NCBI GenBank assembly: GCA_013152435.1
Contig: JAADGJ010000141.1
Span: forward strand, 1-62,502
Source: Chloroflexota bacterium
GTDB lineage: Bacteria; Chloroflexota; Anaerolineae; DUEN01
Direction: 5' to 3'
Length of the DNA: 62,502 nt
The translations under genes were made by a program, and so were the position numbers. Numbering within the stretch: the stretch's first letter is position 1; every line of letters begins with the position of its first letter. This document shows, piece after piece, positions 9,486 to 44,812 of the stretch. Under the pieces are notes generated by a model. The model did no database searches. It saw nothing but the letters and a program-made list of their open reading frames with translations, and was not told where the DNA came from.

Positions 9486-9500
9486 GAAAAACGTCAGCGT

Positions 9501-9583
<83 letters not shown>

Positions 9584-9751
9584 TCTGCCAGATGGGTTTT
9601 TAGCCTCCTTGTCGCATTATACCAGGGAACCAGAAAGGTGGCTAAAACCTTCTCAGAAGATGACGTTATGATAACTTGCGAACAGGCTGGGGGCATGGAG
9701 CACGATCCGTTCCTGCCCCCTGCTTATTGTCTTCACGTGGACGCATCCGGT

Positions 9752-40270: not shown

Positions 40271-40299
40271 TTGACACCGCAACGGTCGTTTGGTATAAT
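40271..40299 (+). promoter_or_regulatory. Consensus promoter of the structured RNA
   Basis: TTGACA (40271-40276) and TATAAT (40294-40299) are both perfect and 17 bases apart. It is the strongest promoter in the window. Transcription should start near 40306. Confidence 0.85.
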
Positions 40300-40305
40300 A
40301 AGCGT

Positions 40306-40492
40306 TGATGGCTGGTGAGGGATCACCGGCCAAGCCAATGTAGGAGGCTGCGGCGTGGGGGGCGCCCATGTGACAGAGACGGAGGTATGAGCTTTCCGGG
40401 AACTGGAGCATGCGGCACGCGAATGGGTCTGAACCGGAGCCCATGAGACGCCCATAAGCCTCGGTGAAAGCGGATAGCGCACCGAGGTTTTT
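40306..40492 (+). ncRNA. Unidentified structured RNA (about 187 nt) upstream of rpsU
   Basis: The RNA lies between a perfect promoter and an intrinsic terminator. Helices visible by eye: a 9-bp stem (40310-40318 with 40323-40331) capped by the tetraloop GGGA; AGCC/GGCT (40333-40336 with 40346-40349); CGTGGG/CCCATG (40354-40359 with 40365-40370); and a possible closing pairing of TTGATGG with CCATAA (40305-40311 with 40452-40457). No reading frame with a ribosome site is present. It could be a free small RNA such as a 6S-like RNA, or a leader with an attenuator controlling rpsU-infA. I do not recognise the family. Confidence 0.6.
40459..40492 (+). terminator. Intrinsic terminator of the structured RNA
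   Basis: CCTCGGTG (40459-40466) pairs with CACCGAGG (40480-40487) and is followed by TTTTT (40488-40492). It lies 65 bases before rpsU, so rpsU expression needs read-through or another promoter. Confidence 0.8.
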
Positions 40493-40557
40493 GTTGCCAT
40501 AGGAGGGCGTCATCCCCTTACGCGAAACGATCTCAATATAGAGGGAGGTGAGTAGCC

Positions 40558-40767
40558 ATTACCGTCGAACTGCGACCAGGGGAATCTCCCGAGAGTCTCC
40601 TGAAAAGGTTCCGCAAAGCGGTGACTGAGGAGCGGATCCTCAGCACCGTGCGCAAGAAGCGCTGGTTCACACCGAAGAGCGAGCTTCGGCGTCTGAAACG
40701 CAAGAAAGCCATCCGCAAGGCTCGTCGGGCAGCTCGCAAGCGTGCAGAGCGAGAAGCAAGAAGATGA
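40558..40767 (+). CDS. rpsU: Small ribosomal subunit protein bS21 with apparent ATT start
   Basis: A 69-aa, very basic protein typical of bS21, with a conserved PGESPESLLKRFRKAVTEERI start and an Arg/Lys-rich end (RRLKRKKAIRKARRAARKR). No ATG, GTG or TTG is available: the frame is closed by TGA three codons upstream of ATT (40558-40560). GGGAGGTG sits seven bases before that ATT, so ATT is the likely initiation codon, as in the classic infC case. An unusual start or a local sequence error are both possible. infA follows 82 bases later. Confidence 0.85.
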   Translation: MTVELRPGESPESLLKRFRKAVTEERILSTVRKKRWFTPKSELRRLKRKKAIRKARRAARKRAEREARR

Positions 40768-40849: not shown

Positions 40850-41089
40850 ATGGCGAAAACGGAAGAAAAGATTTCAGTCGAAGGGACAGTCGTCGAAGCA
40901 CTGCCTAACGCCACCTTCCGCGTCGAGCTCGACAATGGCCATGAGGTATTGGCCTACCTGTCGGGCAAGATGCGAAGGCATTACATCCGGGTTCTGTTAG
41001 GCGACCGGGTGCGGGTCGAGCTATCCCCGTATGACCTCACCCGGGGACGGATCACCTTCCGCTTTAAGACTCCCAACCGAACCGGCTGA
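40850..41089 (+). CDS. infA: Translation initiation factor IF-1
   Basis: A 79-aa OB-fold protein that binds the 30S A site during initiation. The sequence [52 protein letters not shown] is a clear IF-1. GAGGAAAG precedes the ATG. A GC hairpin at about 40774-40805 lies between rpsU and infA. Being next to rpsU rather than in a ribosomal-protein operon is noteworthy. Confidence 0.95.
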
Positions 41090-41692: not shown

Positions 41693-44600
41693 ATGGCGAT
41701 GACCGAAGGATTGGAGCGAAGCTGGGAAGATCTAGCTTCTGCCCTGAACCCACGTCAACGGGAGGCGGTAACAGCGCCGGCAGGGCCTTTGCTCGTCATC
41801 GCCGGCCCCGGTAGCGGCAAGACGCGCGTCATCACCTACCGAGCGATCTACCTCATCACCCAGCGAGGCGTCCCGCCCGACCGCATCCTGGCCGTCACCT
41901 TCACGAACCGGGCTGCCGAGGAGATGCGTGCACGCCTTGAACAGGTGGCAGGCGTATCCGGCGAGGACATCTGGCTTCACACCTTCCACGCCGTCGGCCT
42001 TCGTCTCCTGCGCGAGCACGGCGAGGCCATCGATCTGCCTGCCGATTTCATCGTCGCCGACGAGGAGATGCAGCATCAGGCGTTGCGGGATGCACTGCGA
42101 GAGCTGGACCTCAGCCCAGAGCTATACCCGATCCACGCCTTGCAGGATTACATCAGCCGCAGAAAGGGCGCCATGCAGGATCCAGCGCGCTCCCTGGCCC
42201 GGGAGGAGATGGAGATCATCTACGCGGACGTCGCGCGCGCCTATCAGGATTGGCTTCAAAAACACCAGGCCCTCGACTTCGATGATCTGATCTATTACGC
42301 CGTGCAATTGCTGGCGCGCCGGGCAGATATCCGTCGCCAGGTACAGGCGCAATTGCCCCATGTGCTAGTGGACGAGTACCAGGATATCAACCTGGCCCAA
42401 TACCATCTGCTGACCCTGCTGGCCTCCCCGGGAAGCGATATCACCGTCGTCGCCGACGGCGACCAGTCCATCTACGGCTGGCGGGGGGCTCAGCCATCGC
42501 TGATCGATCGGTTCCAGCGCCGCTACCGCCCGCGCGTGATCGTGCTCGAGCAGAGCTACCGTTCCACTCAGACAATCCTCTACGCCGCCCAGTGGCTGAT
42601 CGCCCGCGGCCAGGCACCTCCCTGGCGCGACCCCAAGCGGCGGACCTACCTTCGCACCGTTCACTCACGCGGCGATCCCATCTACCACTACATTTTCGCC
42701 ACAGCTCAGCAGGAACAGGCCTGGCTGGCCGCCCTGATCCGCCGCCTGCACGAGGAGCGGGGCTATCGGTATGGCGACATCGCGATCCTGTACCGCACCC
42801 ACCGGCTGGCCGACCCGCTGGAGGGCTACCTGGTCCAGCACGGCATCCCGGTGCATCGCGTGCAAAAAGATCACTTCTTCCGGCGCCCCCTGGTGCGCGA
42901 GGTAACCCGATATCTGCATCTGTTGCGCTCACTGGCCTCCGCGCCGGACCAGGAGGTGATCGCCGCCCTCAACTTCCCGCGAACGTTGGTGGACGAGCTG
43001 ACCATCATGCAGCTAGAGCGGCTCGCGCACCGTCATCAGATCAGCCTAGCAGAGCTGGTCCGTTCCAGCGATCGTTTCCCCGAGCTCAGCCCGCTGACCC
43101 GGGCGGCCTTACGCTCCTTCCTCCAACTCTTCGAGGAGGAACTGCGTCCGGTCGCCCATCAGCCGGTCACCGTGATCGTGGAACGGTTGCTGGATACCCT
43201 GGCGGTCCGCCGTAGGCCTTTTGACCCCGAAGAGTGGCGGCGCCTGCTCGACTGGGCCGAGTTCTCCGCCCGCCCCGACGCTGTAGCCCGGATTCGCGAT
43301 TGGCTGGATCGCCGTGTACCTTTCACCGTCTACGCTCCCCCCACGATCGATGGCGCGTGCGCGGCAGCCATCCTGTGCCGCGCCCTGCGGGACTATCTGG
43401 CCTACCCCGTCGCCGCCCAATTGGACGCGTCGCTGGACAGCCCGCAACTGAACCTCGTCGCCGAGGGGGAGCCGGCGCTGACCGTGCACGTCCCGCCCCA
43501 GCGCGCAGTGGGCCAATCCCTCGCCGCCATCGCCTGGAGACTGGCACAGGATATCCTGGCAACCTATGAGACCCTCGCCGACGGCCGGTTCGTGGTGTAT
43601 GATCTGGAGACTACGGGCACGAATGTCCGTCGGGATGAGATCGTGGAGATCGGGGCCCAAGTCATGGAACATCGACGAGATGCGGCCCCACCTTTCTATT
43701 CGCTGGTACGCCCCGCCCGGGGCTCCATCCCGGCGGCGGCGACGAAAGTGCACGGCATCTCCTGGGCCGATGTGAAGGACGCGGATCCCATCGAGGTCGT
43801 GTTGCCGCGATTCCTGGCGTATGTGGGAGAGTCCACGGTGGCCGGGCACAACATCATCGCGTTTGACAACCGGTTCGTCGATCGGGAGGCCGCCCGGCTG
43901 TTGGGACGCTCCTTTCGCAACCCGGCGCTGGACACCCTGTCGCTGGCCCAGCGCCTGCTGCCCGATGAACACAGCTACAGCCTGGAACACCTCCTACGCA
44001 GGCTGAAGCTGGGCGAGGCGGTTGAGCATCGCGCGGCCCAGGATGTCCAGCAGACACAGATGCTCCTGCTCGCCCTGCTTGAGGAGAACCGGCGACAGCT
44101 GGCGCTGAATGCCCTGCCGGAGATGCTCCCGTGGGTGGGGTTGGGCCTGCTGGGCGCTGAGGCCGATTTGGAGGACGAGAACCGGGCGCTATGGCACGGC
44201 GCATTGCGCACGCGAGAGCTCGCGCCCCCGCTGGAGGAACACATCGTGGCGCAACTGCCGGTGGAGGAGCGCGCTCGACTGGATGAGCTCGCGCGGCGCC
44301 TGATGGCCGTACCGCCCCCACCCATGGCCGAAGATGAGGCCTGGAGCGCCATGCGCGAGAACTTCATGGCCTACCTCGCGAGCTTCGCACGCTTCAGCCG
44401 GGATCTCTCGCTGGGCGCCTTCCTGGACCACCAGGCCCTGGTCACCAGCCTGGACATCGAGGGCACGGGGACGGAAGGGGACCGGGTGACGATGATGACC
44501 CTTCACAACGCCAAGGGAACGGAGTTCCCGGTGGTCATCATCATCGGTGTGGAGGAGGAGAATCTGCCTCTGTGGACGACCATGGAGGAGGAGGAGGCGC

Positions 44601-44812
44601 TGGCTGAGGAGCGTCGCGTGTTCTACGTGGGTATGACCCGAGCGCGAGAGCGGCTGTTCCTCTGCTCTGTACGCGATCGAGGCGATGGCTTCGTTCGCCT
44701 GCCCTCCCGATTCGCGTTCGAGCTGCCCGCCGAATACGTGCGCCGCTTTCGCATCGATCCCCAGGGGCAGGTGCAGGAGCTTGACCCATCCGGCAAAACG
44801 GCGGAAAGATGA
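41693..44812 (+). CDS. UvrD/PcrA-type helicase with an internal DEDDh exonuclease domain
   Basis: A 1039-aa protein. Helicase motif I GPGSGKT is at 38-44. DEYQD (motif II) and GDQSIYGWRGA (motif III) are in the expected order, and motif V/VI (MTLHNAKGTEFPVVII near 934 and VFYVGMTRARERL near 976) close the fold at the C-terminus. Between them lies a DnaQ-type 3'-5' exonuclease at about 630-790: DLETTG (Asp637), HGIS, the AGHNIIAFDNRF motif (Asp725), and HRAAQD (His779, Asp784), so all DEDDh residues are present. The stretch at 505-630 is not part of a normal UvrD. Single-stranded DNA unwinding coupled to degradation is the likely role. It has its own gene context after a terminator. Confidence 0.9.
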   Translation: MAMTEGLERSWEDLASALNPRQREAVTAPAGPLLVIAGPGSGKTRVITYRAIYLITQRGVPPDRILAVTFTNRAAEEMRARLEQVAGVSGEDIWLHTFHAVGLRLLREHGEAIDLPADFIVADEEMQHQALRDALRELDLSPELYPIHALQDYISRRKGAMQDPARSLAREEMEIIYADVARAYQDWLQKHQALDFDDLIYYAVQLLARRADIRRQVQAQLPHVLVDEYQDINLAQYHLLTLLASPGSDITVVADGDQSIYGWRGAQPSLIDRFQRRYRPRVIVLEQSYRSTQTILYAAQWLIARGQAPPWRDPKRRTYLRTVHSRGDPIYHYIFATAQQEQAWLAALIRRLHEERGYRYGDIAILYRTHRLADPLEGYLVQHGIPVHRVQKDHFFRRPLVREVTRYLHLLRSLASAPDQEVIAALNFPRTLVDELTIMQLERLAHRHQISLAELVRSSDRFPELSPLTRAALRSFLQLFEEELRPVAHQPVTVIVERLLDTLAVRRRPFDPEEWRRLLDWAEFSARPDAVARIRDWLDRRVPFTVYAPPTIDGACAAAILCRALRDYLAYPVAAQLDASLDSPQLNLVAEGEPALTVHVPPQRAVGQSLAAIAWRLAQDILATYETLADGRFVVYDLETTGTNVRRDEIVEIGAQVMEHRRDAAPPFYSLVRPARGSIPAAATKVHGISWADVKDADPIEVVLPRFLAYVGESTVAGHNIIAFDNRFVDREAARLLGRSFRNPALDTLSLAQRLLPDEHSYSLEHLLRRLKLGEAVEHRAAQDVQQTQMLLLALLEENRRQLALNALPEMLPWVGLGLLGAEADLEDENRALWHGALRTRELAPPLEEHIVAQLPVEERARLDELARRLMAVPPPPMAEDEAWSAMRENFMAYLASFARFSRDLSLGAFLDHQALVTSLDIEGTGTEGDRVTMMTLHNAKGTEFPVVIIIGVEEENLPLWTTMEEEEALAEERRVFYVGMTRARERLFLCSVRDRGDGFVRLPSRFAFELPAEYVRRFRIDPQGQVQELDPSGKTAER

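Follow-up and report, generated by a model that had tools for sequence, protein, structure and literature searches.

A candidate transcription attenuator in the leader of the rpsU-infA genes of an Anaerolineae bacterium

In a 62,502-nucleotide stretch of a Chloroflexota genome (contig JAADGJ010000141.1, hereafter the window), a consensus promoter is followed by a structured RNA, a terminator and the gene rpsU. This arrangement raises the question of whether the RNA is a small RNA in its own right, possibly 6S-like, or a leader attenuating the expression of the ribosomal-protein gene behind it, the two readings proposed in an earlier note made from the sequence alone.

The locus and known RNA families

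The promoter consists of TTGACA (40271-40276) and TATAAT (40294-40299) separated by a 17-nt spacer, with 12 of 12 matches and a TG extension ahead of the -10 element, and is thus as perfect as the earlier note had described it. A scan of 3 kb for sites with at least 9/12 matches returned one, versus a mean of 0.6 for shuffled sequences. The RNA spanning 40300-40492 (193 nt) has a minimum free energy (MFE) of -87.1 kcal/mol, compared with a mean of -69.0 (sd 4.4) after shuffling (z -4.15), and none of 200 shuffles was equally stable. The fold begins with the GGGA-loop hairpin, continues through a compact central domain and ends in the 11-bp terminator and its T run, which confirms both the helical RNA of about 187 bases and the Rho-independent terminator proposed earlier. 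The terminator is missed by a simple scan because its loop is longer than 8 nt; it is present in the MFE structure and in our own scan, with 40456-40466 pairing with 40479-40487 plus the first U, and TTTTT (40488-40492) next. A 7-bp pairing flanking the terminator (GACGCCC, 40447-40453, with GGGCGTC, 40505-40511) is not clearly retained in the relatives G002 and G003. The coordinates of all features are collected in Table 1.

The genes 3' of the terminator had been named rpsU and infA, and domain searches agree, with PF01165 (4e-13) for the first and PF01176 (8e-28) for the IF-1 gene that follows. Among named relatives, the S21 protein is closest (99% identical) to that of the Anaerolineae MAG AUK314, and the window thus probably belongs to an uncultured member of this class. 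The AUU at 40558 was taken as the rpsU start since the first in-frame ATG, GTG or TTG comes no earlier than codon 22, and three codons upstream lies a TGA in the same frame. An AUU start is also found in G002, G003, G056 and G021, where no in-frame ATG, GTG or TTG follows the last stop, and an ATT start was assigned by scoring at 10/163 rpsU loci. In E. coli infC, an AUU start codon makes translation IF3-dependent; in the bolder reading given below, the AUU of rpsU might likewise place a further level of control under initiation factors. The rpsU Shine-Dalgarno sequence of the window is near-complete (GGGAGGUGA), like that reported for Bacteroidota rpsU, and its duplex with the anti-Shine-Dalgarno reaches -15.9, -15.9 and -16.2 kcal/mol in three members of the window's family. 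Elsewhere in the window are a tRNA-Leu (CAA) gene (9500-9585) and a UvrD-type helicase with an embedded RNase_T exonuclease domain (41693-44812).

Table 1 Features of the rpsU-infA leader region in the window
Feature	Position	Strand	Evidence and relatives
Sigma-70 promoter TTGACA-17-TATAAT with TG extension	40271..40299	+	12/12; same promoter in G001, G002, G003
Leader 5' hairpin, GGGA tetraloop 40319-40322 (loop hairpin 40309-40332)	40302..40341	+	Fold; sequence not conserved among relatives
Candidate antiterminator strand GAGGCU, complementary to terminator 5' arm AGCCUC	40344..40349	+	Pairs with the arm in the MFE of truncated RNA; homologous segments in G002, G003
GGGGGG ahead of the start-stop, weakly Shine-Dalgarno-like; can alternatively pair with CCC before the terminator	40357..40362	+	-9.3 kcal/mol, wobble-dependent; alignment columns 2-4 with 114-116
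5' strand of conserved helix holding the AUG	40364..40371	+	Fold and alignment
Candidate start-stop frame AUG UGA	40368..40373	+	AUG-UGA also in G001, G002; AUG-UGC-UGA in G003
3' strand of the AUG-holding helix (GCATGCGGC)	40408..40416	+	Fold and alignment
Hairpin retained in relatives despite largely changed sequence	40422..40443	+	Fold and alignment
Intrinsic terminator, 11-bp stem and U-tract	40456..40492	+	MFE, dedicated scan; near-identical in G002, G003
Extended Shine-Dalgarno GGGAGGTGA of rpsU	40543..40551	+	-15.9 kcal/mol
rpsU (bS21), 69 aa, AUU start codon	40558..40767	+	Domain match; 99% identical protein in G002
infA-like gene (IF-1)	40850..41089	+	PF01176; IF-1 gene at 57/80 named rpsU loci

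The Rfam search suggested in the earlier note gave no match at gathering score for the region, ribosomal-protein leaders included. Amongst the leaders of 20 related loci, Rfam likewise found no leader family, only tRNAs. Matches below the gathering score, to P26 (22.8 bits versus 36), COG2908, CRISPR-DR24 and an L2 leader, were taken as chance. The leader is of the same length class as 6S RNA, and both its length and its terminator would fit a diverged 6S or other housekeeping RNA. However, the genome carries a separate 6S gene (RF00013; G000:C70:22006-22182, 82 bits, above the gathering score), as do most of the genomes searched (RF00013 above cut-off in 34/41), and its SRP RNA gene also lies elsewhere. 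Because of this 6S gene and the lack of an Rfam match at the region, the leader is not considered to be 6S RNA; the 6S-like idea is not borne out, nor are SRP RNA or known Rfam leaders retained as identities, and a housekeeping RNA of any such kind, already contradicted by these results, is given practically no weight.

The leader in relatives and across the Anaerolineae

The leader is single-copy in its own genome, with one further 16-nt match at E 0.83. DNA similarity searches in 60 relatives returned many short matches, four of which were examined besides the window's own locus: L002 and L003 are true homologues, and L004 and L005 were dropped as they have no rpsU context. The window's family has four members (G000, the genome of the window, and G001-G003). 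Promoter, RNA, terminator and AUU-started rpsU occur in identical order in G002 and G003, and G001 has the promoter and most of the RNA, its contig ending inside the leader. The block CCAUGUG paired with GCAUNNGGC is common to all four aligned members, and the terminator is near-identical, with a similar loop, wherever it is present. The alignment proposed in the earlier note thus revealed a conserved locus, gene order and helix; as for covariation, RNAalifold gave 36 pairs, 5 of which show a change in both strands in one or more sequences, and with a covariation term of +0.25 from four sequences the support for the fold is only modest. A covariance model built from the four members and run on 150 genomes of the class matched strongly only those four (E 3e-16 or better), with rpsU directly downstream in all except the truncated G001. 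Four further matches are weak (E 0.007-0.06), L276 among them lying in a coding-looking region. No clear leader homologue was seen by eye at 15 loci outside the class (best S21 matches), which were viewed together with 5 Anaerolineae loci. L241, among the loci viewed for other classes, has a terminator-like stem.

The arrangement of the locus is more widespread than its sequence. The gene rpsU was found in 142/150 class genomes, from which 30 loci and 80 further regions were examined; with 80 loci on named contigs these make 190 entries, reduced to 161, 159 or 163 by analysis once entries sharing the same last 120 nt, taken as duplicates, and those with short flanks had been removed. An intrinsic terminator lies 30-110 nt before rpsU in 67/161 non-redundant upstream regions (Anaerolineae and named contigs), some of which may be accounted for by terminators of upstream genes, compared with a mean of 8.7 and a maximum of 15 over 20 shuffled sets, and with 9/153 in a control interval placed 300 nt further upstream. 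A promoter with at least 10/12 matches is present 45-300 nt before that terminator at 35/159 loci, and in none of 20 shuffled sets was there any. None of 66 terminator-bearing regions has a comparable promoter between terminator and rpsU, so expression of rpsU at these loci appears to require either read-through or transcripts started further upstream. Judged from sequence, the leader layout is recurrent in the Anaerolineae and its sequence lineage-specific.

Some further characteristics of these regions were observed. The rpsU leaders of f27-type genomes (L216, L228, L122 and L246) share another conserved motif, AGGAGUNUGAAGCG, with a GAUC-type hairpin behind it and a CUCGGCUGA-type terminator further on, and no mini-frame was found in them. 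The 3' end of a 5S rRNA lies, by eye, directly upstream of the rpsU leader region in L216, L242 and L246. The terminator loops of L041, L044, L056, L081, L098 and L140 are unusually large (about 15-30 nt), and several of them share a CUCGGUU start.

Predicted pairings and start-stop frames

In another family, f31, comprising nine distinct leaders, the 24 nt before a 5'-proximal Shine-Dalgarno sequence pair with a stretch lying 6-46 nt beyond the terminator. The two strands co-evolve: the pairing is stronger within species (-19.4 kcal/mol) than between species (-15.3 kcal/mol), and 0/20,000 permutations were as good, a statistic which treats the nine leaders without regard to their kinship. When the 3' segment was slid along the sequence, the effect was found at offsets 0 and +10 (0/5,000), compared with p values of 0.04-0.69 at the other eleven offsets. 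Taken singly against shuffled 3' parts, the duplex energies are mostly unremarkable (fractions 0.005-0.515), and it is the own-versus-cross comparison alone that is strong. The helix is compatible with the terminator and can form only in RNA extending past it, so the leader would act as part of the rpsU messenger; this points to an action in cis rather than as a free small RNA. A long-range helix of this kind was sought in the window's family and not found.

Pairings that would exclude the terminator are predicted in both families. When the RNA is cut after the terminator 5' arm, the unconstrained MFE structure pairs the arm with a segment just upstream of the start-stop in each of the window family's three complete leaders (GAGGCU in G000, ACCGAGGU in G002 and GCUGAGGC in G003). 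In the full RNA with the complete terminator this pairing is lost, and imposing it makes the fold less stable by 3.0, 4.4 and 8.6 kcal/mol. In f31, the 5'-terminal GGCCC pairs with GGGCC of the terminator 5' arm in 9/9 leaders, without covariation since the strands do not vary, and the finished RNAs likewise favour the terminator. The pairs are short (5-8 bp), and shuffled sequences often match their run length (42% for G000, 5% and 6% for the others, 33-63% in f31), hence their constant place alone is notable; the complementarity scores to the terminator arms are mostly not significant leader by leader. A mutually exclusive antiterminator is in this respect a candidate, predicted at a constant place in 3/3 and 9/9 leaders but short, and in most of them no longer than shuffles provide.

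The earlier note had seen no coding frame in the RNA, which holds in that there are only short or antisense open reading frames, except that a start codon is directly followed by a stop (AUG-UGA) at 40368-40373. A start followed by a stop at once or within two codons is found in 4/4 leaders of the window's family and in 8/9 of f31. In the eight f31 leaders, a good Shine-Dalgarno sequence forms part of the motif AGGAG-N5-AUG(or GUG)-GNC-UGA, whose place is constant, and the ninth has the AUG with the stop shifted to codon 10. Searching ten genomes of that order for the motif returned it in eight, at rpsU as judged from the motif sequences of known loci, plus two extra matches (L234 and L237) regarded on inspection as chance, the reversed control also giving 2. 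Over a wider set, 10/49 leaders have a Shine-Dalgarno sequence, an AUG or GUG, at most two codons and a stop, versus 0.6 expected; the count was made after the pattern had been noticed, its matches come from two families only, and the leader of the window is not among the ten. Mini-frames were also sought in f21, f19, f30 and f27 leaders and not found. The duplexes of the mini-frames with the anti-Shine-Dalgarno range from -6.1 to -9.3 kcal/mol in the four members of the window's family and from -6.5 to -7.9 kcal/mol in f31, compared with a baseline of 24% of all leader positions reaching -6 kcal/mol. In the window's family, the start-stop AUG lies inside the conserved helix, and the window's own Shine-Dalgarno sequence is weak. 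The 5' end of the antiterminator strand lies 19-24 nt before this AUG.

Probable attenuation and the alternatives

At the window locus an intrinsic terminator lies between the promoter and the gene that would be regulated, one of the features expected of a transcription attenuator. The best explanation, which we consider probable, is that the 5' leader of rpsU-infA is a transcription attenuator, its most likely signal being the capacity for translation initiation, i.e. the supply of bS21 or IF-1. The attenuating leader suggested earlier is in this respect supported by the synteny, the recurrent promoter-terminator-rpsU layout, the f31 helix and the predicted switching pairs; the attenuation itself, meaning termination and regulated read-through in vivo, is what we infer from them. 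Transcription would begin at the promoter, which is very strong, and in many cases stop at the terminator, giving an RNA of about 187 nt. GAGGCU would pair first with the terminator 5' arm; if this pairing persists, transcription would read through into rpsU and infA, and if it is lost the terminator would form. With a ribosome or 30S subunit held at the AUG-stop, the antiterminator strand would be covered, as the general extent of a ribosome footprint suggests, and termination would be favoured. Were bS21 or IF-1 short, initiation at the start-stop would fail and read-through would raise both, closing a feedback loop. Since a start-stop requires initiation and essentially no elongation, it would gauge how many initiation-competent 30S subunits are available. 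Both the translation of the start-stop and its role as a sensor are speculative, and we regard a one-codon or start-stop frame measuring bS21 and IF-1 supply in this way, and feeding back on both genes, as rather unlikely.

The AUG-stop could also be incidental to an ordinary autogenous leader, whose terminator is stabilised when bS21 (or IF-1) binds the folded RNA itself. Direct protein binding is the usual mode of ribosomal-protein leaders, and the terminator loop and the helix formed by CCAUGUG and its partner are conserved in sequence, as a protein site would be. However, the sequence differs between families, the model being strong only for four members, which is unusual for one protein site, and 8/9 f31 leaders retain the Shine-Dalgarno sequence, the start codon and the early stop; autogenous binding is accordingly a real possibility that we place somewhat below even chances. 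Restricted to read-through RNA and compatible with the terminator, the f31 helix would also suit a maturation leader, i.e. a constitutive transcript whose long-range helix serves processing or stability and whose terminator sets a fixed ratio. Such a leader would not account for why complementarity to the terminator 5' arm is conserved, and we consider it improbable.

We judge just as improbable an independent, trans-acting small RNA merely located before rpsU, with rpsU expressed by leaky read-through. A strong promoter, a terminator and a discrete folded RNA are all in keeping with such a molecule, and terminating leaders can also act in trans, as is thought for UpsM (PMC5089854). On the other hand, the leader is single-copy in its own genome and linked to rpsU in every genome where it was found with intact flanks, the terminator-bearing loci (0/66) have no comparable promoter for rpsU after the terminator, and the conserved helix of f31 requires sequence beyond it.

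Considered as an attenuator, the leader resembles several known systems in part. The rpsL and rimP leaders (PMC2965389) likewise place a premature terminator before a translation operon, and the rpsL leader is described as "multiform", with several lineage-specific sequence variants as here; they belong to a different operon, however, and the account given of them describes no start-stop frame. UpsM of Rhodobacter (PMC5089854) is likewise a small RNA produced by a Rho-independent terminator inside a long 5' leader, but in the dcw operon, and a trans action is implied there for UpsM, not for the rpsU leader. A start codon directly before a stop is found in the 5' leader of plant NIP5;1 (PMC11915504), where it is described as serving eukaryotic mRNA decay and boron sensing, without transcription attenuation. 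Closest in subject is the autoregulation of bS21 in Flavobacterium johnsoniae (PMC9976891), where the rpsU Shine-Dalgarno sequence is exceptionally strong. The values here (-15.9 to -16.2 kcal/mol) fall below the -13 kcal/mol applied there, though with an energy estimate that differs from the paper's. Feedback through ribosomes lacking bS21 is reported as demonstrated in Flavobacteria (PMC9976891), and in E. coli bS21 is described as taking part in the pairing between the 16S 3' end and Shine-Dalgarno sequences (PMC10931766). The control in F. johnsoniae is translational and acts at rpsU itself, with ribosomes that ignore the Shine-Dalgarno sequence, whereas a transcription terminator and Shine-Dalgarno-bearing mini-frames are found here.

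No report of an Anaerolineae rpsU attenuator or of a start-stop sensor was found in searches of open-licence PMC papers. The main texts of two works on bacterial leaders, by Naville and Gautheret in 2010 (PMC2965389) and the survey of Eckert and Weinberg (PMC7247131), mention neither rpsU, S21 nor Chloroflexi, and in the literature searched, as far as its accounts go, experimental control of bS21 synthesis is confined to Flavobacteria (PMC9976891, PMC10931766). If true, the Anaerolineae rpsU attenuator would be a second, transcription-level route of bS21 control, in a phylum little explored for its RNA biology, and the start-stop sensor would be a new bacterial way of measuring initiation itself.
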